A DNA stretch of 64,000 nt, from contig NZ_CP010429.1 of the NCBI RefSeq assembly GCF_000974425.1, positions 62,001 through 126,000 of the forward strand, in the 5' to 3' direction. This DNA is from Spirosoma radiotolerans. GTDB taxonomy: Bacteria; Bacteroidota; Bacteroidia; Cytophagales; Spirosomataceae. The translations under genes and the position numbers were made by a program. Below are positions 877-22,879 of the stretch, in pieces. Position 1 is the first letter of the stretch, and every line of letters begins with the position of its first letter. The notes under the pieces are model-generated. The model saw only the letters and a list, made by a program, of their open reading frames with translations. It had not been told where the DNA came from and did not search any database.

Positions 877-1572
877 ATGGCTTGGGTAACACAAACTCTG
901 TCCAGCTCCCTCGGCCGCAAGGTCATAATGTCGCTGACGGGACTGTTTTTAAGTTCTTTTCTAATTGTACATATGGCTGGTAATCTCCAGCTATTTAAGA
1001 GTGACGGCGGTAGGGCCTTCAATGAGTATACGTACTTCATGACGCATAACCCGCTCATTATGACCGTATCGTACCTCCTTTATACCTCCATTCTGGTACA
1101 TGCATTGATGGCTTATGTGCTGACTCGCCACAATCAGTCGTCGCGGCCGGTTAAGTATGCGTATAGCAAGCCAGAAGCGAACAGCGACTGGTCGTCGCGC
1201 AACATGGGTATTCTGGGTACGGTTCTGTTGCTGTTCATCATCATTCACATGCGTACGTTCTGGTACGAAATGCACTTTGGTTCGGTCCCCATGGCCGAGT
1301 ACGACGGTAAACAATACAAAGACCTTTACGCGGTTGTGAAAGTGGCCTTTGGCGAGTTATGGTACGTCGTTCTGTATGTTATCTGTATGGTTGCGGTTGG
1401 TTATCACCTGGCACATGGCTTTCAGAGTGGTTTTCAAACGCTCGGTGTCCGGCATAAAAAATACACGCCACTCATCGAGATGTTAGGCAAGTATTTCTTT
1501 GCAATCATTATTCCGGCGGCTTTTGCAGCCATGCCAATTTACGTGTATTTACAGGTTCATCACATCATTTAA
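877..1572 (+). CDS. sdhC: Succinate dehydrogenase cytochrome b subunit (membrane anchor)
   Basis: 231-residue integral membrane protein with about five hydrophobic segments and membrane-placed histidines suited to haem b ligation. It opens with the Bacteroidota form of the subunit (SSLGRKVIMSLTGLFLSSFL). Families of this type use one fused cytochrome b subunit in place of separate SdhC and SdhD, and none follows here. It anchors SdhA and SdhB to the inner membrane and passes electrons to menaquinone. It is first in a three-gene operon; a 113-base gap filled by a hairpin element separates it from sdhA. Confidence 0.92.
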   Translation: MAWVTQTLSSSLGRKVIMSLTGLFLSSFLIVHMAGNLQLFKSDGGRAFNEYTYFMTHNPLIMTVSYLLYTSILVHALMAYVLTRHNQSSRPVKYAYSKPEANSDWSSRNMGILGTVLLLFIIIHMRTFWYEMHFGSVPMAEYDGKQYKDLYAVVKVAFGELWYVVLYVICMVAVGYHLAHGFQSGFQTLGVRHKKYTPLIEMLGKYFFAIIIPAAFAAMPIYVYLQVHHII

Positions 1573-1681
1573 AGGCGAAAGAGGGAAAGACTGCCTGAGC
1601 GAAAAAATGGAAATTATTCACGCTTCACTCTCCTACTGCTTCGGCGGACCAGTCTTTCACTCTTTCGCTCTTTCGCTCTTT
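1571..1681. repeat. Intergenic hairpin element, octamer family (copy 1, sdhC-sdhA)
   Basis: Left arm 1571-1592 and right arm 1651-1681 are complementary; the inner 18 bases match at 17 positions. The right arm is built from the octamer TCTTTCGC/TCTTTCAC repeated four times. It begins at the sdhC stop codon and ends four bases before the sdhA ATG. The loop contains GCTTCGGCGGACC (1638-1650), which recurs inverted with one mismatch in the glyA-tatC copy (22765-22777). Confidence 0.85.
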
Positions 1682-1685
1682 AAAT

Positions 1686-3623
1686 ATGCAACTGGAATCT
1701 AAAATCCCCGCAGGTCCTTTAGCCGAAAAATGGGCACGGCAAAAATTTTCCCTGAAGCTGGTCAATCCAGCCAACAAGCGGAAATACGATATTATTGTAG
1801 TTGGCACAGGTCTGGCCGGTGCATCCGCGGCTGCGTCGCTGGCCGAGTTAGGCTATAATGTAAAAGCGTTTTGCTTTCAGGATAGTCCCCGCCGGGCGCA
1901 CTCCATTGCGGCCCAGGGTGGAATCAACGCGGCTAAAAATTACCAGAACGATGGCGACAGCGTGTTCCGGTTATTCTACGATACCATTAAAGGTGGTGAC
2001 TATCGGGCTCGTGAAGCAAATGTTCACCGGCTGGCCGAAGTCAGTGTCAATATCATCGACCAATGTGTAGCCCAGGGCGTTCCCTTTGCCCGTGAGTACG
2101 GCGGTACCCTGGCAAACCGCTCGTTTGGTGGCGCCCAGGTATCACGTACGTTCTACGCACGTGGTCAAACGGGGCAGCAATTGCTGCTGGGTGCCTATTC
2201 GGCGTTAAGTCGTCAGGTAGCCAACGGGAAAGTGAAGCTGTACCCACGGACCGAAATGCTCGATCTGGTGGTCGAAGGAGGAAAAGCACGGGGAATCGTG
2301 ACCCGTAATCTGATCACGGGTAAAATTGAGTCGCATTCGGCTCATGCCGTGTTGCTTTGCACAGGTGGCTATGGCAACGTATTCTACTTGTCGACTAATG
2401 CGATGGGTAGCAACGTGACAGCCGCCTGGCGTGCCCACAAGAAGGGAGCTTATTTCGCAAACCCCTGTTTCACACAGATTCACCCCACCTGTATTCCGGT
2501 ATCGGGCCATTACCAGTCCAAACTGACGCTGATGTCGGAGTCGTTGCGGAATGACGGCCGGGTTTGGGCACCGAAATCAAAAGAAGATGCACGGCGGATT
2601 CAGAAAGGTGAGTTGAAACCGACTGATTTGTCCGAAGATGCTCGTGATTACTTCCTGGAGCGCCGTTATCCTGCTTTCGGTAACCTCGTACCTCGTGACG
2701 TAGCTTCTCGAAATGCGAAAAACATGTGCGACGAAGGGCGAGGAGTAAGTAAAACAGGATTGGCTGTTTACCTGGATTTTGCCGATGCCATCAAGCGCGA
2801 CGGTCAGAAAACGATTGAAGCCAAATATGGTAACCTCTTCGAAATGTACGAAAAGATCACCGGCGAAAATCCATATGAAACACCGATGATGATTTATCCC
2901 GCTGTTCACTATACGATGGGAGGTTTGTGGGTAGACTACAATTTGATGACGACCATTCCGGGTCTGTATGCCCTTGGCGAAGCGAACTTCTCGGATCACG
3001 GCGCCAACCGTCTTGGCGCTTCGGCTCTGATGCAGGGGCTTGCTGATGGTTATTTCGTGATTCCGTATACCGTTGGTGATTACCTGGCAACGATTGGGCC
3101 CGCGGATAAAATATCCGTCGATGCCCCCGCTTTTAAAGAGGCCGAAAAGAAAATCCACGACCAGGTCAATCAATTATTGACGATCAAAGGCGAACGGCCG
3201 GTTGATGATTTGCATAAAGAACTGGGCCATATTATGTGGGAGTACTGCGGTATGGCGCGGAACGAAGAAGGGCTGAAGATCGCCAAGCAAAAGATCCAGG
3301 CGCTGAAAAAAGAGTTCTGGACAAATGTGAAAGTGTTGGGCGAGTCGGAGGAGATGAACCAGGCGCTGGAGCAGGCAGGACGTGTCGCTGATTTCATTGA
3401 GCTTGGCGAACTGATGGTCGACGACGCGCTGAACCGTAACGAATCCTGCGGTGGTCACTTCCGGGAAGAGTTCCAAACGCCCGATGGGGAAGCCCTGCGT
3501 GACGATGCCAATTACGCCTATGTGGCGGCTTGGGAGTATCAGGGTGAAGGAAAACCCGAAGTACTCAACAAAGAGTTGCTTGAGTTTGAGAATGTGAAAT
3601 TGACACAGCGGAGTTATAAATAA
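1686..3623 (+). CDS. sdhA: Succinate dehydrogenase flavoprotein subunit
   Basis: 645 residues. The N-terminal dinucleotide-binding motif GTGLAG (about 40-45) is followed by [10 protein letters not shown], whose histidine (about H72) is the expected covalent FAD attachment site. Also seen are the family's substrate-side motifs ([27 protein letters not shown]) and the C-terminal [12 protein letters not shown]. It oxidises succinate to fumarate on the cytoplasmic face in the TCA cycle and respiratory complex II. The opening [16 protein letters not shown] is typical of Bacteroidota SdhA and supports the ATG at 1686. It sits between sdhC and sdhB with a hairpin element on each side. Confidence 0.97.
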
Positions 3624-3624
3624 C

Positions 3625-3700
3625 AGTTCGTGGTTTGTCGTGTGCGGTTTATGGTTGCTGACAGCCAGAACCCCACATGACAAACCACCAACCACGAACT
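3625..3700. repeat. Intergenic hairpin element, GGTTTACGG-type family (sdhA-sdhB)
   Basis: Left arm AGTTCGTGGTTTGTCGTGTG (3625-3644) pairs with the right-arm segments at 3674-3700 (CACATGACAAACCAC, then CAACCACGAACT), with one short duplicated segment bulged. It starts next to the sdhA stop and ends three bases before the preferred sdhB ATG. Its loop (GCGGTTTATGGTTGCTGAC) resembles arms of the elements at 13073-13179 and 36078-36155. Confidence 0.7.
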
Positions 3701-3703
3701 ACC

Positions 3704-4462
3704 ATGAAGATTAACCTAAAAGTCTGGAGACAGAAAAATAGTAATACAGCCGGTAAACTAGTAGAATACCACCTGGATGAGGTATCGGAAGATATGTCGT
3801 TCCTAGAAATGTTCGATGTACTAAATGACTCGCTGACCCGCAAAGGTGAAGATCCCGTAACCTTCGACCACGATTGCCGCGAGGGTATCTGTGGCATGTG
3901 TTCCATGTATATCAATGGGCGCGCACACGGGCCACAAACGGGTGCTACTACTTGCCAACTGCATATGCGCTCATTTAATGATGGCGACACTATTGTGGTT
4001 GAACCCTGGCGGGCTAGAGCTTTCCCCGTTGTGAAAGACTTGATGGTCGACCGGTCGGCTTTTGATCGGATCATCCAATCGGGTGGCTATGTGTCGGTAA
4101 ATACCGGCTCGGCACCAGACGCGAACGAGATTCTTGTTCCGCGTACCATTGCCGATGAGGCTATGGATGCAGCCGCTTGTATTGGCTGTGGTGCTTGTGT
4201 GGCTGCCTGCAAAAATGCGTCAGCTATGCTTTTTGTATCGGCCAAAGTATCGCAGCTGGCCATTCTGCCACAAGGGCATTCGGAGCACAAAGAGCGGGCC
4301 GAACGCATGGTTGCTCAAATGGATGCCGAGGGCTTTGGTGCCTGTTCGTTTACGGGTGCTTGCTCGGTTGAGTGCCCCAAATCAATTTCGCTCGATCATA
4401 TTGCCCGCCTGAATCGCGAGTATCTGGGCGCAAAATTGTCGTCGGAAAACGTACAGGGATAG
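3704..4462 (+). CDS. sdhB: Succinate dehydrogenase iron-sulfur subunit
   Basis: 252 residues from the preferred start. A plant-ferredoxin-like N-terminal domain holds the [2Fe-2S] ligands C58, C63, C66 and probably C84 (CREGICGMC). A C-terminal ferredoxin domain holds [11 protein letters not shown] and the later [12 protein letters not shown], giving the [4Fe-4S] and [3Fe-4S] clusters. It relays electrons from SdhA FAD to the cytochrome b subunit. An in-frame ATG at 3677 would add nine residues, but it lies inside the right arm of the intergenic hairpin and encodes an arm-derived peptide. ATG 3704 gives the family-like opening [12 protein letters not shown]. Last gene of the operon; a terminator follows. 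Confidence 0.96.
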
Positions 4463-4486
4463 TTCAAAAAGAAGGATTAATGATAA

Positions 4487-4526
4487 GAAAGTCCGGTTTT
4501 CGTAAGGAGGCCGGACTTTCATTTTT
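4487..4526 (+). terminator. Intrinsic terminator of the sdh operon
   Basis: GAAAGTCCGG (4487-4496) pairs with CCGGACTTTC (4511-4520), with a 14-base loop, followed by ATTTTTC. It lies 25 bases after the sdhB stop. Confidence 0.85.
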
Positions 4527-4582
4527 CGATGTACTTATTGGATTCCTGTACGGTCACATACCGATTAATGGGAAATGACCTT

Positions 4583-4590
4583 TAGCTTTG
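4583..4590 (+). promoter_or_regulatory. Candidate -7 box for the gtrA-like gene
   Basis: TAGCTTTG matches TAnnTTTG exactly and sits 19 bases before the ATG at 4609. No well-spaced TTG was found upstream, so this is a half match. Confidence 0.4.
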
Positions 4591-4608
4591 CCCCCTTATT
4601 GGTAAATC

Positions 4609-5097
4609 ATGGCAGGTGGGCTTTTCAATCGCAGGGATATCCTTGCTTACTTTATCGTTGCCGCTATCGGCGCTACCGTACAACTCATAGCAGGAAGTTT
4701 ATTTCAGGATTGGTTTCAACTGAGTTATGAACAGGCTTTGTTCGCGGGTTACGTAATTGCTTTTATTGCAGGCTTTTTTCTAACGAAACTCTTTGCTTTC
4801 AACGCAAAAAATTCAGCTAAAACACAGCGGGAAGCCGTCAAGTTTACGCTTGTGTCGATCATTTCCTGTCTCATCACTGTATATGGCGCTTCGATCCTTT
4901 ATGACTTTTCAGTTCAGAAATTTCAGATTGCTACTGTGATTATTCCCTTTTCCGTAAAAGTGGTGAATCTAAATAAACTTGTAGCGCACACGACGGGCAT
5001 GGGATTGAGCTTTATCAGTAATTACGTATTACACAAGTCGTTTACATTTCGTAATACCGGCTTCTATGAACGGTTGAAGAAACTGTTGAATTTGTAG
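4609..5097 (+). CDS. GtrA-like membrane protein
   Basis: 162 residues with four predicted membrane helices. The C-terminal signature SNYVLHKSFTFRN is typical of the GtrA/DPMS3 family (flippase-like helpers for lipid-linked sugars). The family is implicated in moving undecaprenyl-linked glucose across the membrane or in supporting polyprenol sugar synthases, but the substrate cannot be read from sequence. It stands alone behind its own candidate -7 box, separated from sdh by a terminator. No sugar synthase is adjacent. Confidence 0.75.
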   Translation: MAGGLFNRRDILAYFIVAAIGATVQLIAGSLFQDWFQLSYEQALFAGYVIAFIAGFFLTKLFAFNAKNSAKTQREAVKFTLVSIISCLITVYGASILYDFSVQKFQIATVIIPFSVKVVNLNKLVAHTTGMGLSFISNYVLHKSFTFRNTGFYERLKKLLNL

Positions 5098-5163
5098 GCC
5101 TACCAAGCTCGTGTAGTAATAAATAGCTTAATTAGCTCAGAAAAACAGTGCTGGCTCCTATCT

Positions 5164-5319
5164 CTGTGGTCCGTCAGGACACGGATCGCGAAAGGTGTCT
5201 TCTGTCTCCGTGGCCCGTGTCCTCACGAACCACATACCTGGCAGGCCAATCTACCTGACTGTAATGACGGCCCGACGCGTCTGTGGCCCTTGAGGACACG
5301 GACCACAGACGCGTCGGGC
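5164..5319. repeat. Cluster of three GGTCCGTG/CACGGACC palindrome copies
   Basis: Between the gtrA-like gene and prfA (convergent). Copy A at 5164-5183 (CTGTGGTCCGTCAGGACACG), copy B at about 5206-5235 (CCGTGGCCCGTGTCCTCACG then AACCACA) and copy C at 5281-5308 are variants of one word. Copy C lies in a longer hairpin: the arms GCCCGACGCGTCTGTGG (5270-5286) and its exact complement (5303-5319) flank a 16-base loop. The same core recurs at 28134-28157. Copy C may end transcription from both genes. Confidence 0.8.
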
Positions 5320-5334
5320 GTTGATAAACGTGAA

Positions 5335-6408
5335 TTAAGTCGTTGCTCCTTCCTTCAAGCGTTCGGCGTTCTCGGCAATGCGAAGCTGCTCGATAAACTC
5401 GCCAATACCGCCATCCATTACGGCCGGGAGGTTATAAACTGTTAGGCCAATACGGTGATCGGTCACGCGGCTTTGCGGGTAATTGTACGTTCTGATTTTA
5501 TCGGAACGATCGCCACTGCCAACCATCGTTTTGCGCTGTGACGCAATAGCGTCGTTATGCTTTTGCAATTCAATTTCGTAAAGCCTTGACCGAAGTACCG
5601 TCAGCGCTTTGTCGAAGTTTTTTAACTGCGAGCGTTCGTCCTGGCATTGCACGACCAAACCCGTCGGAATGTGCGTGAGCCGCACGGCCGAATACGTGGT
5701 GTTTACAGACTGACCACCCGCTCCCGACGAACAGAACGTATCCTTACGAATGTCGTTCATATTGAGCTCAACGTCTACCTCTTCGGCTTCGGGTAGTACC
5801 GCAACGCTGGCGGCCGAAGTATGAATCCGGCCCTGCGTTTCGGTAGCCGGTACCCGTTGCACCCGGTGAACCCCCGATTCAAATTTTAACTTGCCATATA
5901 CGTCTTCGCCTTCGATCTCGGTAACTATTTCTTTATAACCACCTGATGTTCCTTCGGTAAAGTCAACAAGCGACATTTTCCAGCCCATTTTCTCGCAAAA
6001 ACGCTGATACATTCGGAAAATATCGCCCGCAAAAATGGCTGCTTCGTCGCCACCGGTGCCCCCGCGAATTTCGAGAATGACATTTTTGCTGTCATTGGGA
6101 TCTTTCGGCATCAACATCTCTTTGAGCGTTTCTTCCTGAGCTTCCCGGCGTGGCAGCAGTTCATCTAACTCACCTTTGGCCATTTCCCGAAAATCTTCAT
6201 CTTTCTCGGTAGCAATAACTTTCCGGGCGTTCTCAATTTCTTCCAGCAGTTGCTGATAAGCCTGATACTGCACAACGATTTTTTCTAAATCTTTGTATTC
6301 TTTACTCAACTTCATAAATCGCTTCTGGTCCGAAACGACTTCGGGCTGTACAATTTGTTGAGATACTTCGTTGAAGCGTTCACGAATGGCTTCTAACTGA
6401 TCAAGCAT
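5335..6408 (-). CDS. prfA: Peptide chain release factor 1
   Basis: 357 residues. The codon-recognition tripeptide PAT (187-189, in RVPATETQGR) marks RF1, which reads UAA and UAG. The catalytic GGQ (231-233) hydrolyses peptidyl-tRNA in the ribosome. The open frame extends to 6498, but the ATG at 6406-6408 gives the standard opening MLDQLEAIRERF and the standard length. A candidate promoter at 6469-6503 lies inside the extension, which also argues for the shorter form. Confidence 0.96.
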   Translation of the reverse strand: MLDQLEAIRERFNEVSQQIVQPEVVSDQKRFMKLSKEYKDLEKIVVQYQAYQQLLEEIENARKVIATEKDEDFREMAKGELDELLPRREAQEETLKEMLMPKDPNDSKNVILEIRGGTGGDEAAIFAGDIFRMYQRFCEKMGWKMSLVDFTEGTSGGYKEIVTEIEGEDVYGKLKFESGVHRVQRVPATETQGRIHTSAASVAVLPEAEEVDVELNMNDIRKDTFCSSGAGGQSVNTTYSAVRLTHIPTGLVVQCQDERSQLKNFDKALTVLRSRLYEIELQKHNDAIASQRKTMVGSGDRSDKIRTYNYPQSRVTDHRIGLTVYNLPAVMDGGIGEFIEQLRIAENAERLKEGATT

Positions 6409-6468
6409 AAGTGTATACTTTTTTTGCCACCCTTCTGGAGTGGCAAGAGGAATTACTGATATAAGAAG

Positions 6469-6503
6469 CAAATTTACGAAATTACCGTGGTCCGGCATCC
6501 CAA
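6469..6503 (-). promoter_or_regulatory. Candidate promoter of prfA
   Basis: Read on the minus strand: TTG (6501-6503), 24 bases, then TAAATTTG (6469-6476). The -7 box is exact and the spacer is slightly long. Transcription would start near 6462, about 55 bases before the chosen ATG. Confidence 0.5.
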
Positions 6504-6597
6504 CAGTTAGACTTTGTATTTACTAATTGCAACCAAGCGGTTGATGGAATCGTTTTTCAACTAAGCTACGAAACCCAATCTTATTAAGTTCCTGTTT

Positions 6598-7185
6598 ATG
6601 ACACGCTTTCTGCTTCTTTATGGTCTATTAATCAGCTTTCTAACGGCTTGCAACCCTGAGCGGGTACGCTACACAAACGAGCTAAAGCAGGAAATGGCCG
6701 ATTCGAAAATCAAGCGTGTTACCAATGCCGATTTAGTAGAAACGGTAGACAATTTGGGAGGGAGAATTAGTACAGTGCTTGAAAAAGAACTAACTACTCA
6801 GCTTCAAAAAACAACAAATCCCGCTGAGCGCGCTAAGTTGTGTCAATTAAAAACCCTGCCAAGAGTCAAAGCCATTGCCGAGCGGTATGCGCTGGACATT
6901 CGTTTGCTGGGTGAGGTAGATATTCAGAATCAGGCCCTGAATGCCAAGGAAAGGGAAATTCTGGACGCCTACCTCTACAGCGCTAAACAGAAGGTATCGG
7001 CCATTTCCAATATTCAGAAAATTAACGATACCCTCTTCGTTTACAATGCACCAGTTCCATCAAACAGCCTGATTTGTGAAGCGTGTTTTGGCAAACAGGA
7101 AACACGATTCGCGGTTTGGCATTTAGGCTTTAACAAACGGGAAGTAATCCGCCGAATGAGCGAAACCAAGAAAAAGAAGCGGTAA
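6598..7185 (+). CDS. Putative lipoprotein, possibly DUF3365-like
   Basis: 195 residues. It begins with a lipoprotein signal (MTRFLLLYGLLISFLTAC, lipobox LTAC, C18). The mature part is mostly helical and polar. Near residue 160 it has LICEACFGKQ, where haem-binding relatives of the DUF3365 type carry C-x2-C-H; here phenylalanine replaces the histidine. This weak resemblance is the only family clue, and I do not assign a function. Its stop codon (7183-7185) directly abuts the stop of convergent selU (7186-7188), leaving no room for a terminator between them. Confidence 0.7.
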   Translation: MTRFLLLYGLLISFLTACNPERVRYTNELKQEMADSKIKRVTNADLVETVDNLGGRISTVLEKELTTQLQKTTNPAERAKLCQLKTLPRVKAIAERYALDIRLLGEVDIQNQALNAKEREILDAYLYSAKQKVSAISNIQKINDTLFVYNAPVPSNSLICEACFGKQETRFAVWHLGFNKREVIRRMSETKKKKR

Positions 7186-8220: not shown

Positions 8221-8226
8221 ATCTGA

Positions 8227-8356: not shown

Positions 8357-9065
8357 CCAGGCAGCGTAAATACATCTGAATGGTGTTTTCCAGCCCAAAA
8401 TAAAGGGCATCGCAGATCAGGGCGTGGCCAATAGAAACCTCTTCTAAACCGGGTACCTGCTCATCGAAAAAACGCAGGTTTTCCAAACTTAGATCGTGCC
8501 CCGCGTTCAGTTCCAACCCTAGTTCGATTGCGCGTTTGGCCGCCCGGACAAAAGGCGCAACAGCGGCTTCACGGTTTTCTGCATAGTGAGCCGCATACGG
8601 TTCGGTATACAATTCGATACGATCTGTACCAACCGCTTTGGCGCCTTCAACCATGCGCTCATCGGCATCGACAAAAATAGAGACCCGGATGCCATCGGCC
8701 TGGAACGTCTCAACCAACTGCCGAAGATGGTCGGCATGGCGGATGGTATCCCAACCCGCATTAGACGTAATAGCGTCAACCGCATCGGGGACCAGCGTCA
8801 CCTGCGCCGGTTTTACCCGTTTAACTAACTCAATAAAGCGCTCGTCTGGGTTGCCTTCAATATTAAACTCTGTTGTTACTACGTCGTGCAAATCAAGCAC
8901 ATCCTGATAACGGATGTGCCGTTCATCGGGGCGCGGGTGAACCGTAATTCCCTGCGCACCGAAGCGTTCGCAATCAAGAGCGACGTTGACAAGATTGGGG
9001 TTATTACCACCCCGCGCATTGCGAATGGTGGCAATTTTATTGATGTTAACGCTTAACCGAGTCAT
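8334..9065 (-). CDS. pdxJ: Pyridoxine 5'-phosphate synthase
   Basis: 243 residues of the PdxJ TIM-barrel. It condenses 3-amino-2-oxopropyl phosphate with 1-deoxyxylulose 5-phosphate in the DXP-dependent vitamin B6 pathway. The opening [20 protein letters not shown] and the motifs [13 protein letters not shown] and TEFNIEGNP are family hallmarks. A longer frame starts at 9080, but that ATG falls next to the hairpin element, and ATG 9063-9065 gives the conserved start. The last seven residues come from one arm of the 8227-8356 inverted repeat, so the C-terminus may be a late addition. Confidence 0.95.
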
Positions 9066-9070: not shown

Positions 9071-9216
9071 AATGAGCCAAAGAGTGAATGAGCGAAAGTG
9101 TGCAGCTATCCGCTCAGGTAAAGTGAATAACGTTGTTTGACTTTGTAACTTTGCCGAAACAGTGAAGGTTCATTGGTTTTTTATCGCTCTTTCGCTCATT
9201 CACGCTTTCATTCATT
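9071..9216. repeat. Intergenic hairpin element, octamer family (copy 2, pdxJ/yqeY)
   Basis: Left arm about 9071-9100 and right arm 9185-9216 share a perfect 15-base complement (GTGAATGAGCGAAAG). The arms use variants of the octamer TCTTTCGC (TCATTCAC, GCTTTCAT). This copy lies between divergent genes: the left arm adjoins the pdxJ start and the right arm ends five bases before the yqeY ATG. The candidate yqeY promoter box sits in the loop. Confidence 0.85.
9146..9153 (+). promoter_or_regulatory. Candidate -7 box for yqeY
   Basis: TAACTTTG matches TAnnTTTG. It lies in the loop of the 9071-9216 hairpin, so a transcript started here would include only the right arm. No well-spaced TTG was found. 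Confidence 0.45.
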
Positions 9217-9221: not shown

Positions 9222-9674
9222 ATGTCGTTAAAACAACAAATAGACGCCGATATCAAGCAGGCCATGCTGGCTAAGAATCAGGACAAGTTACGTGCCTTGC
9301 GGGCCCTAAAGTCGATGATTCTGCTTGAAGAAACAAAAGAAGGCCAGTCCGGCGATCTCAAACCCGAAGATGAAACTAAGATTCTGACCAAAGCTGTAAA
9401 ACAACGGAAGGATTCTGCCGATATTTATCGTCAGCAAAATCGTGCTGATTTATTGGCCGTAGAGGAGGCTGAAATTGCGGTTATCGAACAATACTTGCCC
9501 AAGCAGTTGTCGGAAGAGGAGCTAAAAGCAAAACTACAGGCAATTATGGCCCGTGTTGGCGCATCGGTTCCTTCTGACTTAGGGAAAGTAATGGGCGTAG
9601 CTTCCAAAGAACTGGCTGGTCAAGCCGATGGGAAGGCAATTTCGGCTATGGTAAAGCAACTGTTACAAGGATAG
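9222..9674 (+). CDS. GatB/YqeY domain protein
   Basis: 150 residues, all-helical YqeY family. The N-terminal part (MLAKNQDKLRALRALKSMI) and the C-terminal DLGKVMGVASKELAGQADGKAISAMVKQLL match the domain that forms the tail of GatB amidotransferase. Free-standing YqeY is thought to affect tRNA-dependent amidation, but its role is not settled. It starts a run of three co-directional genes (yqeY, cvpA-like, rlmN) whose gaps each hold a hairpin element. Confidence 0.9.
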   Translation: MSLKQQIDADIKQAMLAKNQDKLRALRALKSMILLEETKEGQSGDLKPEDETKILTKAVKQRKDSADIYRQQNRADLLAVEEAEIAVIEQYLPKQLSEEELKAKLQAIMARVGASVPSDLGKVMGVASKELAGQADGKAISAMVKQLLQG

Positions 9675-9680: not shown

Positions 9681-9753
9681 GTGAATGATTGAGAGATTGA
9701 ATTAGGGCATATGCCATCTATTCGATCAGTCAATCATTCCGTCACTCATCATT
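9681..9753. repeat. Intergenic hairpin element, GATGAATGAT-type family (yqeY-cvpA)
   Basis: Left arm GTGAATGATTGAGAGATTGA (9681-9700) pairs with ATTCGATCAGTCAATCATTC (9720-9739); GAATGATTGA is an exact ten-base match. The loop centre is the palindrome GGCATATGCC (9706-9715). The right-hand sequence continues as CGTCACTCATCATT and ends three bases before the TTG start of the next gene. Confidence 0.8.
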
Positions 9754-9756
9754 TTA

Positions 9757-10305
9757 TTGAATACGCTCGATTTACTCATGCTCGTTCCCCTTGCCTGGGG
9801 GGCTTTTAACGGATACCGAAAAGGTCTTCTGGTGGAGATCGTTGCGGTTATTGCGTTTGTTATAGCCATGATTGTCGGGTTTAAATTTCTGGCTTTTGGC
9901 ATCGAATTGCTCAGTCCATACATCAGCCGGGAGCTAGCCCGTAAGATTCTGCCCTGGCTGGGTTTCTCCATCATATTTTTTCCTACAGTGGTGATGATCA
10001 ACCAGATGGGTTTTGCCATCCGGCGGTCGCTCAAGTATTCTGTATTAGGCACATTCGATAGCGTAGCCGGTGCCACGGTAGGCGTTTTTACGTGGGTATT
10101 TGGAATTAGTGTTATCCTTTGGTTGTTCAGCTATATGGGCGTCAAGATGCCTGCTCGCCAAGTCGAAACGGCCTTTATGTATCCCTATATCAGGCCAATA
10201 GCGCCGAAAGTAATGGATAAGGCCGCTGTTTGGGTACCTAAAGGGTTAGACGCAGGAAAGAAGTGGCGAGCTGAAATTATAAAGAGTGAAAGAGTGAAAG
10301 AATGA
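9757..10305 (+). CDS. CvpA family membrane protein
   Basis: 182 residues with four membrane helices. It begins NTLDLLMLVPLAWGAFNGYRKGLLVEI, matching the usual CvpA opening. Relatives are needed for colicin V production in E. coli, apparently through envelope function. No ATG fits the conserved opening, so translation probably starts at the TTG at 9757, immediately after a hairpin element; ATG 9778 would cut off conserved residues. The C-terminal KSERVKE is encoded by the left arm of the next hairpin element, so both ends of this gene touch repeats. Confidence 0.85.
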   Translation: MNTLDLLMLVPLAWGAFNGYRKGLLVEIVAVIAFVIAMIVGFKFLAFGIELLSPYISRELARKILPWLGFSIIFFPTVVMINQMGFAIRRSLKYSVLGTFDSVAGATVGVFTWVFGISVILWLFSYMGVKMPARQVETAFMYPYIRPIAPKVMDKAAVWVPKGLDAGKKWRAEIIKSERVKE

Positions 10306-10356
10306 AAGAGTGGCTTTGCTGCTTTCGCTCTTTCACCATTTGCTCTTTCGCTCTTT
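10281..10356. repeat. Intergenic hairpin element, octamer family (copy 3, cvpA-rlmN)
   Basis: Left arm 10281-10310 (octamers of the form AAAGAGTG repeated) pairs with right arm 10321-10356 (GCTTTCGC, TCTTTCAC, TCTTTCGC, TCTTT). The left arm overlaps the last codons of the cvpA-like gene, and the right arm ends six bases before the rlmN ATG. This is the shortest loop in the family, about ten bases. Confidence 0.85.
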
Positions 10357-10362
10357 AAAAAC

Positions 10363-11424
10363 ATGAAACAAGATATTCGCAAACTGACGGCTGTTCAGTT
10401 AAAAGACTGGTTTGCAAAAAATAACCAACAGGGGTTTCGGGCTAAACAGGTGCACGAATGGCTCTGGAAAAAATCAGCGCTTTCGTTTGAGCAGATGACT
10501 AACCTGTCGCTGCCGACGAGGGAACTGCTGAACGAACATTTTGAAATACGATCCTTGACCGTTGATCAACAGCAACGGAGCAATGATGGGACTATCAAGT
10601 CATCGTTTCGCCTGTTCGACGGAAACCTGGTTGAAGGCGTACTGATACCAGCTCTACGTACTGACGCCCGTGACGACGGACCGAGTGATCGAATGACTGC
10701 TTGTGTATCGAGCCAGGTGGGTTGTTCATTGACATGTAAGTTCTGCGCAACGGGTTATATGGATCGGAAGCGCAACCTCGATGCGGCCGAAATCTACGAC
10801 CAGGTAGTGGCCATTGACCGGCAGGCTAAAGAAAACTACGATGCATCCCTGACAAACATCGTATACATGGGCATGGGCGAACCCTTGCTTAACTACAAAA
10901 ACGTACTGGAATCGGTTGACCGCATCACATCGCCCGATGGCTTGGGCATGTCGCCCAAGCGCATCACTGTGTCGACGGCGGGTATCGCTAAAATGATCCG
11001 GCAACTTGGTGATGATGAGGTGAAGTTTAACCTCGCTTTATCGCTTCATGCGGCAAACGACCTGAAGCGCGACCAAATTATGCCCATCAACGAAAGCAAT
11101 ACGCTGGAGGTGTTGGGTGATGCACTGACTTATTTCTATAAAAAGACGGGTACGCGCGTTACATTCGAGTACATTCTCTTCTATAATTTTAACGATACGC
11201 TGCAAGACGCTCTGGAACTTTGGAAGTTTACAAAGCGGGTGCCAGCCAAGATCAATATCATTGAGTATAACCCGATTGCGGAGGCTAGTTTCAAAAATAC
11301 AGATCCGCAAACGCTGGATAAATTCGCCGGATTTTTAGAAAGCAAAGGCGTAACGGTGAATGTCCGCCGGAGCCGTGGTAAAGATATTGATGCTGCCTGT
11401 GGGCAACTGGCCGGCAAAAAGTAG
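10363..11424 (+). CDS. rlmN: Dual-specificity 23S rRNA/tRNA adenine C2-methyltransferase
   Basis: 353 residues of the radical SAM family. The cluster motif C121-x3-C125-x2-C128 (GCSLTCKFCATG) binds [4Fe-4S] and SAM. The C-terminal cysteine (about C346, IDAACGQL) is the family's resolving residue. It methylates A2503 of 23S rRNA and A37 of some tRNAs. An N-terminal helical RNA-binding region (GFRAKQVHEWLWKK) precedes the barrel. The stop codon lies inside the left arm of the GTAGAGACGC repeat that follows. Confidence 0.97.
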   Translation: MKQDIRKLTAVQLKDWFAKNNQQGFRAKQVHEWLWKKSALSFEQMTNLSLPTRELLNEHFEIRSLTVDQQQRSNDGTIKSSFRLFDGNLVEGVLIPALRTDARDDGPSDRMTACVSSQVGCSLTCKFCATGYMDRKRNLDAAEIYDQVVAIDRQAKENYDASLTNIVYMGMGEPLLNYKNVLESVDRITSPDGLGMSPKRITVSTAGIAKMIRQLGDDEVKFNLALSLHAANDLKRDQIMPINESNTLEVLGDALTYFYKKTGTRVTFEYILFYNFNDTLQDALELWKFTKRVPAKINIIEYNPIAEASFKNTDPQTLDKFAGFLESKGVTVNVRRSRGKDIDAACGQLAGKK

Positions 11425-16695: not shown

Positions 16696-18786
16696 TCAAA
16701 ACTTAGCCTTCCCTGAATCCAGAAACGCAACGAAGTGCGCTACATCCCGGTCGTAGTTCTTGGGCGGCACAAGCAACTTTCCGTCGGTATTGACCAGGCA
16801 GTAATGCGGCTGTGCATTGTTATTAAATTTCGTGATCTGCAGATCAGCGTTTTGAGCGCCGATACTCTTCTTGACTTTTTGATCATACGTGGACGTGTAC
16901 CATTCTGCTTCGGGCAATTCGGTCTTGTCGTCTACGTAGAGAGCCAAAATAACGAAGTCGTTCTGTAAACGGGTCATCACCGCCGGATCTGACCAGACAC
17001 GGGCTTCCATCTCGCGGCAGTTCACACAACCGTGCCCCGTGAAGTCAATGAATACAGGTTTATTCACTTTTTTGGCGTAGGCCAAGGCTTGTTTGTAATC
17101 GAAAAAGCCTTGTAAGCCACGTGGCAAGCGAAACAGATCTCCATATTTTGGCGTCTCGGTTAGGCTATTCGCGGATGGAGCCGCAACTTGCTGATTCGTC
17201 AGGTTAAAATCCTGCGAAGTCTCGGGAGGGAGGTAGCCAGACAGGGCTTTCAATGGAGCGCCCCAAAGGCCAGGAATCATGTAGACCACAAACGAGAGTG
17301 TAGCAATGGCTAACAGCAGCTTCTGGACGCTGATAAATTTGGTTTCGCTGTCATGCGGTAACCGAATTTTCCCCAAGAAATAAAAGCCGATCAAGGCGAA
17401 AATGACGATCCAGAGAGACAAAAATACTTCGCGGTCAAGCAAGCCCCAATGATATACCTGGTCGGCAATACTCAGGAATTTTAGCGCCAGCGCCAATTCC
17501 AGAAAGCCCAATACGACTTTTACCGAATTAAGCCATCCTCCCGAGCGGGGTAAGCTTTTTAACCATTGCGGAAAAGCAGCAAACAACGTGAATGGAATCG
17601 CGAAGGCCGACGAGAAGGCTGCCATGCCTAAAATAGGCTTGATTACTTCTCCTCCGGCCGATGCAACCAGCAAGCTACCAACAATGGGTCCTGTGCAGGA
17701 GAACGACACTAGCACCAGGGTGAAGGCCATAAAGAAAATCCCGGCAATACCACCCTGTTCTGACTTCGCGTCGGCCTGGTTAATGAGCGAATTGGGCAGA
17801 ACAATTTCAAAAAGACCCAGAAAAGACAGACCAAAAATAAAGAAGATGGCAAAAAACAGGATGTTGGGAAGCCAGTGCGTACTAACGAAATTGGCAAATG
17901 CAGGGCCGTTGAACCGGGATACCACCGTGCCAATGAGCACATAGATACCAATGATGAAAAAGCCATACAAAAGAGCTTTCCATTGGCCACCCTGCTGATT
18001 GGTGAAGAAACTAACTGTGGCAGGAATAATTGGGAAGACACAAGGCGTGAGCAACGCAACCAAACCTGATAGAAAAGCGGCCAGCATAAAACTCCACAGC
18101 GATCCATCGACTGCTTTAGTTGTTTCATCGACAACGACGTCTGGCTCATTAGCCGTGGTCGTACTGGTCGAGGTTAGGGACTCCGTTGCTTCAGTAGCTG
18201 CTACAGCCGCTTCTGGCGTCGTGCCTGAAATGGCCGTTTCAGATGTTGGCTGCGTAACCGTCGACGCGGCAGTGGGTGAAGAAACTGCCACTGCTGGGGT
18301 AGCTGTTGGGCCCTCTACGAGCAAACCTGTTATGGCGAAATCGTCATTACCCGGAATACACTGGCCATCGCTATCCGTACAGACTTGATAGTCGATATTA
18401 CCCTCAAGAATAGGCTTGTCCGTTAAAATTTTGATCCGTTGAGAAAACTGGGCAGGGCCGTGCATCAGGTACGTATCCCCTTCAAACACCTCTTCGAACT
18501 TGGTTTCTACCTTGCTGACTGGTTTTATCTTTCCAACTAATTCATAAGTCTTATTCGGCGTAAACTTAATGACTGTTGGCAGAGGCCCATCAATTTTGGG
18601 GTTGACATCTGAAGAGTAAATATGGTACCCGTCTTTGATATTGGCGGTAAACCGTACCTCAACAACATCACCAATTTTGGCCGAAGATTTGGTTGACTTA
18701 TAAGTCCAGGAGACTGGTTTAATGATTTGGGCAAACGTAGTGAGGGGTAGCAATAGCCACACAACGAGCGTACTAATTGATTTCAT
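16696..18786 (-). CDS. DsbD-like thiol:disulfide interchange protein
   Basis: 696 residues. Signal peptide (MKSISTLVVWLLLPLTTFAQ), then a DsbD-alpha-like periplasmic domain, a Thr/Ala/Ser-rich linker (about 180-240), a polytopic membrane domain (CVFPIIPATVSFF, SCTGPIVGSLL), and a C-terminal thioredoxin-like domain with C587-VN-C590 (GHGCVNCREME). It carries electrons from cytoplasmic thioredoxin across the membrane to periplasmic substrates. The open frame extends to 18846, but ATG 18784-18786 gives the clean signal peptide. A cytochrome-maturation role is possible but not shown by neighbours. Confidence 0.9.
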   Translation of the reverse strand: MKSISTLVVWLLLPLTTFAQIIKPVSWTYKSTKSSAKIGDVVEVRFTANIKDGYHIYSSDVNPKIDGPLPTVIKFTPNKTYELVGKIKPVSKVETKFEEVFEGDTYLMHGPAQFSQRIKILTDKPILEGNIDYQVCTDSDGQCIPGNDDFAITGLLVEGPTATPAVAVSSPTAASTVTQPTSETAISGTTPEAAVAATEATESLTSTSTTTANEPDVVVDETTKAVDGSLWSFMLAAFLSGLVALLTPCVFPIIPATVSFFTNQQGGQWKALLYGFFIIGIYVLIGTVVSRFNGPAFANFVSTHWLPNILFFAIFFIFGLSFLGLFEIVLPNSLINQADAKSEQGGIAGIFFMAFTLVLVSFSCTGPIVGSLLVASAGGEVIKPILGMAAFSSAFAIPFTLFAAFPQWLKSLPRSGGWLNSVKVVLGFLELALALKFLSIADQVYHWGLLDREVFLSLWIVIFALIGFYFLGKIRLPHDSETKFISVQKLLLAIATLSFVVYMIPGLWGAPLKALSGYLPPETSQDFNLTNQQVAAPSANSLTETPKYGDLFRLPRGLQGFFDYKQALAYAKKVNKPVFIDFTGHGCVNCREMEARVWSDPAVMTRLQNDFVILALYVDDKTELPEAEWYTSTYDQKVKKSIGAQNADLQITKFNNNAQPHYCLVNTDGKLLVPPKNYDRDVAHFVAFLDSGKAKF

Positions 18787-18860
18787 ACCGCTTTGGGTAA
18801 GTGATGGTTTGGTAGGTGAACAGCAATTGAACGAAAATATTTCCATTTCTCATCTAACTG

Positions 18861-18891
18861 CAAAAGAAAACCCCGGTACTGGCCGGGGTTT
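18861..18891 (-). terminator. Intrinsic terminator of the PhyH-family gene
   Basis: On the minus strand AAACCCCGG (from 18891) and CCGGGGTTT (ending 18868) form a hairpin followed by TCTTTTG. It lies between the PhyH stop at 18918 and the next minus-strand gene. Confidence 0.8.
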
Positions 18892-18917
18892 CTCAATAAA
18901 GGTACGAAAGCTGTTTA

Positions 18918-19751
18918 TTAATAACTGAATAGTATAGGATTCAGATCATCTTGTGGATGACTGCCGACGGGAACATTATTAAGCCACTTGGCGTGGTCAG
19001 CCACCTGAAATTTGTTGCGCGGCTGCATAATAACCTGATCCATATCCATATAAATCATTGTCATAACCTTGCGTGGTCGGTCGGAAATATTGGGCCCTGC
19101 CCGGTGAAATGTCCAGCCGGCATGATAGCTCACTTCGCCCAGATCGAACGGAGCATCGTGCATTGGGAAATTCTGCTGTTGGAGTGTATCGGCAAGAGTT
19201 TTTTCGCTAGCGTCGCTGATCTCAATATCGCGTCCAATCTCAATGTGCTGGCTTCCTTCGGCGAAAGCCAGCGGGCCCATGTCCATAGGTGTTTGCTGGA
19301 GCGGAATCCAAACCGTAACCGTGTTGGGCGATGCCAGCGGCCAGTAAAACTGGTCGGCGTGCCAGGGCGTAATGCCGCCCGATGGCTCTTTGTACAACGC
19401 CTGGTCGTGGTAGATGCGAACGCCCTTCACGCCCATCAGATCGGTGGCAATTTTGGCAAGCCGTCTGGAGAAAACAAACTCCTTCGCCTGGTCGTCCTCG
19501 CGCCACAAGTTCATGATTTGAAGAAAAGCCCGCTCGTAGGTAGTGCGTTCTTCCATCGGTTTGATAAGCGTATTGAGCTTAAATACCAGATTAGTAATAA
19601 TGGTGCCATAATAGTCAAGCACGGCCGGGCTAAGTACATCTTTCAGCTTAACGTAGCCTTTCTCACGATAGGAGGCAATCGCTTTCGGTTCGACCACGTA
19701 GGGGGCCTGTAGTTCACTCAGCAGTGTTTCCCGATCAATTGTAGCGTCCAT
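18918..19751 (-). CDS. Phytanoyl-CoA dioxygenase (PhyH) family protein
   Basis: 277 residues. The Fe(II) triad of a 2-oxoglutarate oxygenase appears as H131-x-D133 (TPWHADQFYWP) with a distal histidine in YHAGWTFHRAGPN (H216 probable); an arginine in ISDRPRK could bind 2-oxoglutarate. Family members hydroxylate varied small molecules, and the substrate here is unknown. An upstream ATG at 19784 is in frame, but it overlaps the candidate promoter, so ATG 19749-19751 is preferred. Divergently paired with an AraC-type regulator, which probably controls it. Confidence 0.85.
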   Translation of the reverse strand: MDATIDRETLLSELQAPYVVEPKAIASYREKGYVKLKDVLSPAVLDYYGTIITNLVFKLNTLIKPMEERTTYERAFLQIMNLWREDDQAKEFVFSRRLAKIATDLMGVKGVRIYHDQALYKEPSGGITPWHADQFYWPLASPNTVTVWIPLQQTPMDMGPLAFAEGSQHIEIGRDIEISDASEKTLADTLQQQNFPMHDAPFDLGEVSYHAGWTFHRAGPNISDRPRKVMTMIYMDMDQVIMQPRNKFQVADHAKWLNNVPVGSHPQDDLNPILFSY

Positions 19752-19781
19752 TGGGGAATCGTTTAAAGATAGTTTATACAA

Positions 19782-19844
19782 CAAAAGTAAAGCGTCGATA
19801 GAGGAGCTATCGACATAGATTTTACAGATTCCTGTTTAATTTTG
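19782..19844. promoter_or_regulatory. Divergent promoter region with candidate operator
   Basis: A minus-strand -7 box, TACTTTTG (19782-19789), faces the PhyH gene. A plus-strand -7 box, TAATTTTG (19837-19844), faces the araC-type gene. Between them is a perfect inverted repeat, GTCGATAG-AGGAG-CTATCGAC (19794-19814), placed just upstream of the PhyH -7 box. This is a plausible binding site, but AraC proteins often prefer direct repeats, so the assignment to the neighbouring regulator is inference. Confidence 0.5.
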
Positions 19845-19893
19845 ACCCACATACTGTTATACATCCACCAGACGTGTTAAAATAAGACTTCTT

Positions 19894-20766
19894 ATGAAGG
19901 CTCTTTTCGAGAAAGTAATGTTCAATGAGCAGAGTTCGCTACTGGTTCGCCGGTTTGAGTTGCTCTATTTTGATGCGCCCTGGCATTATCATCCGGAATA
20001 TGAACTGACATACATTGTTAGGAGTCATGGCCGACGTTTTGTTGGCGACCATGTAGAACCGTTTCTGGCGGGCGATTTAGTGTTGCTTGGCCCTGATTTG
20101 CCTCACTTCTGGCGGAATGATGACGAATTTTATCAGACAGATTCACCGCATCTGGTCGAATCAATCGTCGTCCAGTTTCCGGCTTCGTTTACCGAACGCG
20201 GACTCGCATCGATACCTGAAGCAGCCTTAGTGCGCGAACTACTTGAACGCGCCCGGTATGGGCTTCGGTTTAGTTTGGAAATGAGCCAAACAGTTGCTGA
20301 GAGGATGGAACAGTTGCCACAGCAGACTGGATTAACTCAATTATTGAGCTTGCTGACTATCTTAAACGTATTGGCGACTGACCAGAATGCCCAACTGCTG
20401 GCAAGTGACGGGTATCAGCTAGCGCCGGGTGCCGCCGAAACCGAGCGGATGAAGCGAGTTCTGGAGTTTGTATTAGGCCATTTTCGGGAAGAAATCAGAG
20501 TCGAGCAGATCGCTTCTGTCGCGGGTATGGCCCCGGCGGCTTTCTGTCGATATTTCAAGAATCGTACGCGAAAAACATTTGTCGAATACCTTAATGAACT
20601 GCGCATTGGGCATGCGCGTAAGCTACTCACCAATGTGGATATGAGTATTGGCCAAGTGGGTCTGGAGTGCGGATATAACAACAATTCCCATTTTCACCGG
20701 CAATTTAAATTAAGCACGGGCATAACTCCCTTCCAGTATCAGGCGCTGGCACGAGGGAAAGGATAA
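19894..20766 (+). CDS. AraC-family transcriptional regulator
   Basis: 290 residues. The N-terminal half is a cupin-like sensor (DAPWHYHPEYELTYIV, then GDLVLLGPDLPHFWRND). The C-terminal hundred residues hold two helix-turn-helix motifs ending GLECGYNNNSHFHRQFKLSTGITPFQYQ, the AraC signature. It binds DNA and probably senses a small ligand in the cupin pocket. The divergent PhyH gene and the inverted repeat between them make that gene the likely target. A perfect hairpin terminator follows. Confidence 0.92.
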   Translation: MKALFEKVMFNEQSSLLVRRFELLYFDAPWHYHPEYELTYIVRSHGRRFVGDHVEPFLAGDLVLLGPDLPHFWRNDDEFYQTDSPHLVESIVVQFPASFTERGLASIPEAALVRELLERARYGLRFSLEMSQTVAERMEQLPQQTGLTQLLSLLTILNVLATDQNAQLLASDGYQLAPGAAETERMKRVLEFVLGHFREEIRVEQIASVAGMAPAAFCRYFKNRTRKTFVEYLNELRIGHARKLLTNVDMSIGQVGLECGYNNNSHFHRQFKLSTGITPFQYQALARGKG

Positions 20767-20788
20767 TAATGATGAATCCCTGTATACT

Positions 20789-20840
20789 TCATTTAGATTG
20801 GGAGCTGGTTGAGCAATTAACCAGCTCCCAATCTAAATGA
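20789..20840. terminator. Bidirectional hairpin, araC-type gene / YXWGXW gene
   Basis: A 22-base arm at 20789-20810 is exactly complementary to 20819-20840, with the 8-base loop GAGCAATT. It lies between convergent genes, eight bases before the stop of the minus-strand gene. Confidence 0.85.
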
Positions 20841-20847
20841 TTATTGA

Positions 20848-21150
20848 TTACCGCCAGTGGCCTTCAACCCATATTGGCCCCCGGCGAGACTGCCGCCAGT
20901 AGCCAGGTGCCCAGGCTCTATAGCGGGCTGGAGCCATTTGGTAATACCCATTTACCCAAATATAATTTCGCCCCCGGCGTATATAATGCCCCGGAATCCA
21001 AATATGTCGTACGGAAGGGGCGACGGGAATCACCTCAACGCGTGCCGGTGGAGGCCCTTGAACTGTTGTTGTTGCCGTAGCTGTACAGGCTGAAAATAAC
21101 GTTGGTAATAGCAATCCGGCCAATACCAAAAATTTTACTTGCTTTTTCAT
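20848..21150 (-). CDS. YXWGXW-repeat lipoprotein
   Basis: 100 residues. Lipoprotein signal with lipobox FSAC (C22). The mature part has repeated aromatic units (HIWIPGHYIRRGRNYIWVNG, then RAWAPGYW and IWVEGHW), the pattern of YXWGXW/BcpO-related repeat proteins. These small envelope proteins have no established function. It stands alone with a shared terminator at its end. Confidence 0.8.
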   Translation of the reverse strand: MKKQVKFLVLAGLLLPTLFSACTATATTTVQGPPPARVEVIPVAPSVRHIWIPGHYIRRGRNYIWVNGYYQMAPARYRAWAPGYWRQSRRGPIWVEGHWR

Positions 21151-21359
21151 GGTATATACCTGGTTAAGAATGGGCAGTTGATACAGGTCTTTGGCAACAA
21201 ATGCCGAACTGTCCTGAATCGTCCGTTTGGAAATATGATGTATTTTTAAGTCGATGGTTTAGGTAGCGTTCGTGTTCAGGTAAAAAATTAATATCATTTT
21301 ATCTCTTTCATCTTGCAGGATAGCGCTCAAAATCTTCCAAATCCTACCATTTTCTACCG

Positions 21360-21367
21360 TACCTTTG
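21360..21367 (+). promoter_or_regulatory. Candidate -7 box for glyA
   Basis: TACCTTTG matches TAnnTTTG; no well-spaced TTG was found. It predicts a transcript starting at about 21374, which makes the ATG at 21375 leaderless and favours the ATG at 21450. Confidence 0.45.
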
Positions 21368-21449
21368 TGCCTTAATGAGTTGGTTGTTTGCCCGTTCGCA
21401 AAAGCAGCAGCCAGAGACCAAAATAACCGAATACAAAAACGCTCGTAGC

Positions 21450-22739
21450 ATGACGACCGCCACTACCACCCGCGATACGCAGGTATTTGACCTGATTGCC
21501 AAAGAACAGCACCGGCAGGAGTCGGGTATTGAATTAATCGCTTCCGAAAATTTCGTATCGCCTGCCGTTATGGAAGCGGCTGGCAGTGTTCTGACCAACA
21601 AATATGCGGAGGGGCTTCCCGGCAAACGGTATTATGGCGGTTGCGAAGTGGTTGATCAGGTTGAGCAAATTGCCATTGATCGGGCTAAAGAACTCTTTGG
21701 GGCTAGCTGGGTCAACGTGCAGCCGCACTCAGGCGCCAATGCAAACACGGCCGTATTTCTGGCGTGTCTACATCCTGGCGATACGATCCTGGGATTTGAC
21801 TTGTCGCACGGTGGGCACCTAACCCATGGCTCATCGGTCAATATTTCGGGAAAATATTTCCGGCCAACCTTCTATGGGGTCGAACGGGAAACCGGCGTTA
21901 TTAACTACGATGTTGTTGAAGAAACCGCGAAACGGGAACGGCCTAAACTGCTGATATGTGGAGCTTCTGCCTACAGCCGTGACTGGGATTACGCTCGTCT
22001 GCGGGCCATTGCCGATGAAATTGGCGCGCTCCTGCTGGCCGATGTATCGCACCCGGCTGGCCTGATTGCCAAGGGTTTGTTGAATGACCCGCTGGCGCAC
22101 GCACACATCGTTACTACAACCACGCATAAAACGCTGCGGGGCACACGGGGTGGCATTATCATGATGCGGAATGATTTCGAAAACCCATTCGGTATTAAAA
22201 CCGTGAAGGGTGAAACGCGGTTAATGTCGTCGCTGTTGGATTCAGGCGTATTTCCGGGTACGCAGGGCGGTCCTTTGGAGCACATCATTGCGGCCAAAGC
22301 CGTTGCGTTTGGCGAAGCGCTAAGCGACGATTTTTATGATTATGCGGTTCAGGTGAAAGCCAACGCCCAAGCTATGGCCAACGCATTCCTGAGCCGGGGC
22401 TACGAAATTATTTCGGGCGGTACAGACAATCACCTGATGCTGATCGATCTGCGGTCGAAAGGGCTGACGGGTAAATTAGCTGAAAATACGCTTATTAAAG
22501 CGGATATCACAATTAACAAGAACATGGTTCCCTTCGATGATAAATCGCCGATGGTTACCTCAGGAATACGAGTTGGAACGGCGGCTATGACAACGCGCGG
22601 TCTGAAAGAATCGGACATGGAACAAATTGTCGTATATATCGACAAGGTGCTGATGAATCACGACGACGCGGCTACATTAGCAACCGTTAAAGAAGAAATC
22701 AACGAGTGGATGAAAGCATTTCCGCTCTATAAAAGTTAA
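21450..22739 (+). CDS. glyA: Serine hydroxymethyltransferase
   Basis: 429 residues from ATG 21450; the frame is open from ATG 21375, but the 25 extra residues (basic, glutamine-rich) are not family-like. The PLP lysine is K227 in [15 protein letters not shown]. Substrate and cofactor motifs include [23 protein letters not shown] and [13 protein letters not shown]. It interconverts serine and glycine with tetrahydrofolate, supplying one-carbon units. It is followed by tatC across an octamer-family hairpin element. Confidence 0.97.
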
Positions 22740-22749
22740 TTACTAAGGT

Positions 22750-22879
22750 TTAAAGAGCGAAATCGGACCGCCGAAGCGGAATGGAAAGAGTGAAAAGCGA
22801 AAACTGGCCGCCAGAACCTACAGAAATTCGCATCACTTTTCTCTTTCGCTCTTTCACTCTTTTACTCTTTCGCTCTTTA
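22750..22879. repeat. Intergenic hairpin element, octamer family (copy 4, glyA-tatC)
   Basis: Left half contains TTAAAGAGCGAAA (22750-22762) and GGAAAGAGTGAAAAGCGAAA (22783-22802). The right half (about 22836-22879) is five units of TCTTTCGC/TCTTTCAC/TCTTTTAC ending five bases before the tatC ATG. GGACCGCCGAAGC at 22765-22777 is the inverted, one-mismatch counterpart of the loop motif of copy 1. Confidence 0.85.

Follow-up and report, generated by a model that had tools for sequence, protein, structure and literature searches.

We analysed a 64,000-nucleotide (nt) stretch of Spirosoma radiotolerans DNA (the window; contig NZ_CP010429.1, positions 62,001 to 126,000 of the forward strand), in which four intergenic hairpins built from degenerate copies of an octamer end just before start codons. 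At the same gene junctions across the genus we found palindromes with different units, arms that match privately at each junction, a length change of one unit, loops inverted in place and a G-poor arm beside the start. We put the probability at roughly one half that these are self-renewing palindromic junction spacers, lying mostly in operons, whose arms are kept matched by DNA template switching.

Degenerate TCTTTCGC/TCTTTCAC units form an inverted repeat in each of the four gaps, with right arms ending 4, 5, 6 and 6 bases before the ATGs at 1686, 9222, 10363 and 22885; the downstream genes are sdhA, yqeY, rlmN and tatC, respectively, and their families were confirmed. The hairpins, first described in a sequence-only reading, are therefore real and placed as it had reported, 4–6 bases before these start codons. 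Allowing up to 2 mismatches, the motif CTCTTTCRCTCTTT is matched 20 times in the window; 100 shuffles averaged 0.64 matches and never exceeded 4. An inverted-repeat search of the window recovered three of the four copies (1563-1688, 9071-9216 and 10281-10341); the tatC copy, whose arms are more interrupted, was not among its results yet folds well. Predicted RNA folding energies for the four copies are -37.8, -48.7, -38.7 and -50.7 kcal/mol (z from -4.2 to -6.8), and 0 of 200 shuffles per copy were as good as the real sequence. An Rfam scan of the window gave no matches at the gathering score. The junction palindromes and the features within them lie as follows, in window coordinates.

1575..1684, + strand: sdhC-sdhA junction palindrome, unit CTCTTTCR; left arm about 1575-1600, right arm 1652-1684
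1572 and 1686, + strand: limits of the sdhC-sdhA junction, the sdhC stop ending at 1572 and the sdhA ATG at 1686
3625..3700, + strand: sdhA-sdhB junction palindrome with another, GTTTGTGG-like unit; sdhB ATG at 3704
9071..9216, + strand: palindrome of the divergent pdxJ/yqeY gap; left arm 9071-9102 and right arm 9187-9216, each 5 nt from a start codon (that of pdxJ, minus strand, ending at 9065; the yqeY ATG at 9222)
9146..9153, + strand: promoter-like TAACTTTG, between the two arms of the pdxJ/yqeY palindrome
9683..9756, + strand: yqeY-cvpA junction palindrome, related unit CAATCATT/CATTCAAT, reaching the TTG start at 9757
10281..10356, + strand: cvpA-rlmN junction palindrome; left arm 10281-10312, right arm 10322-10356, rlmN ATG at 10363
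10303-10305: cvpA stop codon, inside the left arm of the cvpA-rlmN palindrome
22750..22879, + strand: glyA-tatC junction palindrome; right arm 22841-22878, about five octamers, tatC ATG at 22885
22764..22779, + strand: GC-rich 16-nt motif CGGACCGCCGAAGCGG, which breaks the left arm of the glyA-tatC palindrome

The earlier description needs amending in three respects. The gap that holds the yqeY copy is divergent, and there the left arm, too, comes to within a few bases of a start codon, that of pdxJ; the cvpA stop falls within the left arm of the rlmN copy; and ahead of cvpA and sdhB the window has additional junction palindromes, built from other units. We note that the GC-rich motif (TGCTTCGGCGGTCCGA / CGCTCCGGCGGCCCGG and relatives) is a clean 16-nt insert, present or absent in the arrays of close species, and that relatives recognised by eye also occur in the arrays at sdhA of G161 and G114 and at tatC of G152 (genomes are given by G numbers where they need to be told apart). 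By eye, the CvpA C-terminus and the RlmN N-terminus vary between species at the palindrome ends (10281-10363), with RlmN starting as M-KQD, M-QD, M-EKQD and others, and the junction arrays seem to rewrite the protein ends there.

We compared nine junctions across the genus: those of sdhA, yqeY, rlmN and tatC, the neighbouring ones of sdhB and cvpA, and those of cydB, menA and xseA, with at most 30 of the 36 genus genomes per junction. The genus is taken as Spirosoma because three of the four nearest named rlmN loci carry that label and the rlmN gaps of G068 and G161 are the same as those of Spirosoma lacussanchae and Spirosoma sp. 48-14. A hairpin was called at a score of 22 or higher; 120 shuffles reached 21 at most. 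A strong inverted repeat was present at 217 of the 259 junction cases. Occupancy was 30/30 at tatC, 19/30 at rlmN, 20/30 at sdhA, 21/29 at sdhB (no match in G197), 28/29 at cvpA (no match in G140), 18/21 at cydB, 28/30 at menA, 28/30 at xseA and 25/30 at yqeY. For cydB, 24 genomes matched, from which G131 (a fragment), G140 (26% identity) and G201 (less than 120 nt upstream) were excluded; menA and sdhA of G200 are misanchored, the match beginning inside the protein, and were kept in the totals as junctions without a hairpin. For five of the junction genes, control windows in the coding sequence showed a hairpin in 0 of 142 cases, and the 170 nt after the stop in 38 of 142, half of these after tatC.

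The repeat units vary by species and by junction, yet both arms of one junction match. With unit types assigned by simple string rules, G126 carries type A at seven junctions, M at sdhB and D at yqeY, and three unit types are seen at menA among G004, G173 and G167, which are close relatives, those of the first two being related octamers. Unit length varies as well: the start-proximal arm has a period of 8 in 119 of the 217 hairpins and of 7 in 29, with no clear period in 63, as against 206 without a period after shuffling. The earlier suggestion that the arms bind a protein or RNA is not supported as an explanation of why the octamer exists, because orthologous junctions use other units, and we rejected a genome-wide recognition factor for the octamer since the junctions of a single genome, such as G126, use different ones. 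The motif TAnnTTTG, described as the -7 promoter consensus (PMC7366714), occurs within 170 nt before the start in only 4 of the 229 co-directional gaps, so the eight co-directional junctions look operon-internal as judged from sequence.

Arm matching is private to each copy. Two positions of the unit are variable, and at these the arms of 21 octamer copies agree in 27 of 32 and in 31 of 35 cases, above all of 2,000 shuffles (averages 16 and 17, maxima 25 and 27), and the order of units within the own genome differs from copy to copy. Comparison of the loops of 24 octamer copies showed no relationship, the highest-scoring match (10) coming from the GC-rich insert; copying of whole elements was rejected on these two grounds, unrelated loops and private unit order. 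Between close species, the loop is inverted in place at xseA (G164 versus G182) and at cydB (G161 versus G146), the latter as a 45-nt exact match in inverted orientation; the cydB loop is 10 nt, below the length cut of the general loop comparison. That comparison gave 32 direct matches outside yqeY, many of them not independent, against the two inversion cases. Six further inverted loop matches consist of three with the GC-rich insert in opposite arms, one with an apex motif and two weak array matches. At rlmN, G161 and G146 differ in length by exactly 8 nt, one unit, and at menA of G068 and G149 three paired sites have changed on both sides and none on one side only. The sequence-only reading had named a lack of compensatory changes in orthologous gaps as a result that would speak against it; the arms there have changed and are still complementary.

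Standing mismatches in the 192 co-directional hairpins are symmetric, with 156 G-U and 142 A-C, whereas a control of six tRNAs gave 10 G-U and 0 A-C. The private identity of the arms, the two loop inversions and the absence of a standing G-U excess favour template switching at the DNA level over a conserved RNA fold.

The same anatomy recurs in the divergent pdxJ/yqeY gap. Its arms are complementary in 25 of 30 species, with 13 G-U and 30 A-C mismatches, and TAACTTTG occurs at this gap in all 30 species and within the loop in all 25 hairpins. Because this promoter-like motif sits between the arms, the arms probably lie in different transcripts. In many species, judged by eye, TAACTTTG is followed by a similar GGTTCA-containing stretch (9146-9185) unlike the surrounding arms.

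The arm next to the start has a composition of its own. G exceeds C in the left arm of 188 of the 192 co-directional hairpins. The right arms are 6.4% G, with 0.65 start codons per 100 nt as opposed to 10.73 in the left arms, and the start-proximal arm is nearly without G or start codons regardless of the unit. In a contiguous 1.6-Mb tile of the own genome (G000 C1:1-1600000), the ratio of the two polarities was 40:6 among repeats ending at most 25 nt from a start and 25:6 with the octamer family removed; it was 25:20 farther from starts and 25:23 in convergent gaps. Gene leaders in the tile are mildly G-poor overall. In Flavobacterium johnsoniae, upstream adenines and mRNA structure are described as tuning initiation (PMC6847099). 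The near-G-free, start-codon-poor arm beside the start looks like the part kept by selection, and since it is near-free of G whatever the unit, selection on the leader would filter which arms survive.

The earlier expectation of a dispersed family abutting start codons held up genome-wide, with far more than the four copies of the window. In the single contig of 7,029,352 bases, a 22-mer octamer pattern at up to 3 mismatches has 139 + 152 (291) matches, overlaps counted separately, and its reversed control 0. At up to 2 mismatches the pattern is found in 57 of 200 genomes of the family; among 33 other genus members only G191 (84% complete) had no match, the others ranging from 4 to 464. In the tile, where gene starts came from our own open reading frame (ORF) calling with no annotation used, we defined 24 elements by one arm at up to 2 mismatches and the other at up to 3. 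Lone arms at 3 mismatches were discarded as background (87 + 103 versus 60 + 51 for the reversed pattern), and lone-arm matches at 2 mismatches numbered 30 + 33 versus 5 + 4. The 24 elements lie in 21 co-directional, 3 divergent and 0 convergent gaps, convergent gaps being 184 of the 1,160 in the tile. Of the 21 co-directional elements, 18 have a start-proximal arm whose end falls -3 to +7 nt from the next start (the other three are at 21, 80 and 150 nt), and 13 have a left arm that is overlapped by the tail of the upstream gene.

The octamer family is one among several palindrome families of the genome. Strong inverted repeats (score of at least 30) occupy 96 of 500 co-directional, 7 of 108 divergent and 49 of 114 convergent tile gaps of 30-320 nt, and 0 shuffled gaps. 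A 400-kb stretch of G079 has 17 strong inverted repeats in 132 co-directional gaps with a near-start polarity of 6:1; it shares 20 conserved adjacent gene pairs with the own genome, 15 of which we compared.

An apex motif, GCTGACGC, is found in 17 of 152 strong palindrome gaps of the tile versus 3 of 480 gaps scoring below 22 (about 90 intermediate gaps excluded), and a 7-mer of this apex in 14 of the 217 junction hairpins versus 0.95 expected by shuffling. At 29192-29251 of the window, on the minus strand, a palindrome of the family TCTGAACCAGGATTTAATTGAT lies between stop and start, and the orthologous junction of G079 is a bare TGAATG. Palindromes with other arms lie at 36078-36155 (GTTTACCGG-like) and 48757-48837 (TTTACAAGTCAAAAAGTCG with a GGCTGACG apex). 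A further palindrome, TTTGTCATTCCGACG...AGGAATCTT, is dispersed near starts (tile positions 178981, 1099333, 1100708, 463612 and 1102838) and belongs to a linked group of 10 gaps.

We propose that each spacer consists of two arms of short tandem units, mostly of 8 and sometimes of 7 nt, flanking a local loop. Replication slippage would gain and lose units, and polymerase template switching between the arms would copy one arm into the other, sometimes flipping the loop, so that the arms would remain complementary while their letters drift and are replaced. Selection would mainly set limits rather than maintain RNA pairs: the stop and start codons would bound the array, and the start-proximal arm would need to be almost without G, hence without start codons. 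Slippage and template switching together could account for arm identity, loop flips and unit drift in co-directional and divergent gaps alike, and the bounds set by stop and start codons, with the constraint on the leader, for the position and polarity of the arrays. Template switching has been described as homogenising inverted-repeat arms and inverting spacers (PMC8604942) and as creating and repairing hairpins (PMC8794818). Here it would be the cause, and the spacers would be tolerated through read-through of junctions within one mRNA.

Several observations weigh against template switching as the whole account. It leaves one octamer at many unlinked sites with unrelated loops unaccounted for, and the sharing of one octamer among loci would need a spreading step; our guess is that the octamer spread by template switching between loci at shared octamers. 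Occupancy of 192 of 229 at the eight co-directional junctions is high absent selection for the palindrome, in a junction sample that is not random, seven having been picked for an octamer copy in the own genome. Arm copying is not visible at every step: 30 close-species comparisons, which overlap and so are not independent, gave 67 one-sided changed pairs against 10 pair-to-pair double changes and 1 other. The one-sided changes comprise 35 G-U, 14 A-C and 18 others; the recent G-U to A-C ratio of 35:14 leans towards RNA pairing, and weak selection on pairing may be at work.

That lean also counts in favour of a sequence-independent RNA hairpin selected for operon translation, a tentative alternative that we consider somewhat unlikely. 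Such a hairpin would either join the upstream stop to the downstream start or lock the start, keeping it closed unless the upstream gene is translated; any unit would serve and the letters could turn over. It would explain why the junctions are filled despite changing units, and it agrees with their operon-internal look (the rare TAnnTTTG), with ends near stop and start and a left arm often overlapped by the upstream gene, and with the strong predicted folds. Hairpin-less gaps can be very short, by eye, at rlmN of G106 and G201 and at sdhB of G167 and G173, but short hairpin-less gaps are equally expected if palindromes come and go there, and other hairpin-less cases have a different upstream neighbour (rlmN of G167, G004 and G173). 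The symmetric standing mismatches count against it, as does the divergent pdxJ/yqeY gap, which has no stop to bridge and a promoter-like motif in its loop. For the earlier suggestion that the arms fold over the translation start, such a fold is predicted and the newer changes lean its way; the standing mismatches show no preference for G-U pairs, and in the yqeY gap the arms are probably in different transcripts.

A wider version, which we hold to be unlikely, is a genus-wide sequence-free device in which palindromic operon junctions, with an arm beside the start that lacks G and start codons, join stop and start and pass translation over a gap of about 100 nt. It would be a regulatory class defined by symmetry and position alone, with DNA copying as its maintenance machinery, and if it exists, its free letters would make it invisible to sequence searches.

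A non-autonomous mobile repeat, MIRU-like or MITE/REP-like, that re-inserts at stop-start junctions while older copies decay or are replaced seems more doubtful still. One unit does occur at very many sites and in most genus members, with match counts from 4 to 464; junction types swap between close species (sdhA of G161/G146; the cvpA gap of G004 versus G173 and G167); the TGAATG junction of G079 is an empty site for another palindrome family; and the GCTGACGC apex is common to palindromes with different arms. Against this, no relationship links the loops of the 24 octamer copies, units are ordered differently from copy to copy, and the constant filling of nine junctions is unexpected under random insertion. 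No target duplication was recognised by eye at the few empty sites, with no systematic search made, and the octamer-rich G098 and G140 lack a Y1 transposase match. In its simple form, a small mobile element with a strict insertion preference, as the sequence-only reading had considered, is also disfavoured by identical junctions holding different units in most species examined. Intrinsic terminators or attenuators between genes are very improbable: the intergenic hairpins are strong, and terminator-like stems can be seen by eye at sdhB of G121 and menA of G106, but none of the four window copies has a T run after its stem, where A-rich letters and the start codon come instead, and 0 of 24 octamer elements lie in convergent gaps.

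By analogy, the spacers would work like template-switched quasipalindromes and sit like MIRUs. In the former, as described in PMC8604942 and PMC8794818, arms likewise become identical and spacers invert, and paired sites are able to co-change; the cases given there are short repeats in yeast genes and stems of RNA genes, whereas here the arms are tandem octamers or heptamers, dispersed in the genome, renewed at the same junctions genus-wide and tied to start codons. MIRUs are likewise described at start codons beside closely spaced genes (PMC12548453), but as carrying an ORF coupled to the next gene; here there is a palindrome whose sequence is not conserved at the site, and the right arms hold few start codons (the 0.65 per 100 nt given above, a count that covers arms and not loop ORFs). 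Unlike MITEs, the copies have no common internal sequence (best loop match score 10 among 24 copies). REP families generally have a conserved palindrome sequence and a relative of Y1-type transposases (RAYT). The elements described here are, like REPs (PMC12306157), dispersed intergenic palindromes, but one copy resembles the next in neither loop nor order of units. No PF01797 (Y1 transposase) match was found in 7 of the 36 genomes, including G098 and G140 with 180 and 179 octamer matches, and RAYT/REP was rejected as the driver on the octamer-rich genomes. For MIRU, MITE and REP alike, one or more of the features tested is absent here. Among the papers listed by our literature searches, whose coverage leaves out most subscription journals, we came across no description of this repeat family.

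Complementary arms with altered letters across species are usually taken as proof of a functional RNA fold. Here a covariation-like signature occurs alongside symmetric standing mismatches, loop inversion and arms that flank a promoter-like motif in a divergent gap, so these junctions offer a natural test of how closely DNA copying by itself can mimic RNA covariation. They also bear on how genes inside operons are initiated in a phylum lacking Shine-Dalgarno sequences when a strong predicted hairpin stops just ahead of the start.

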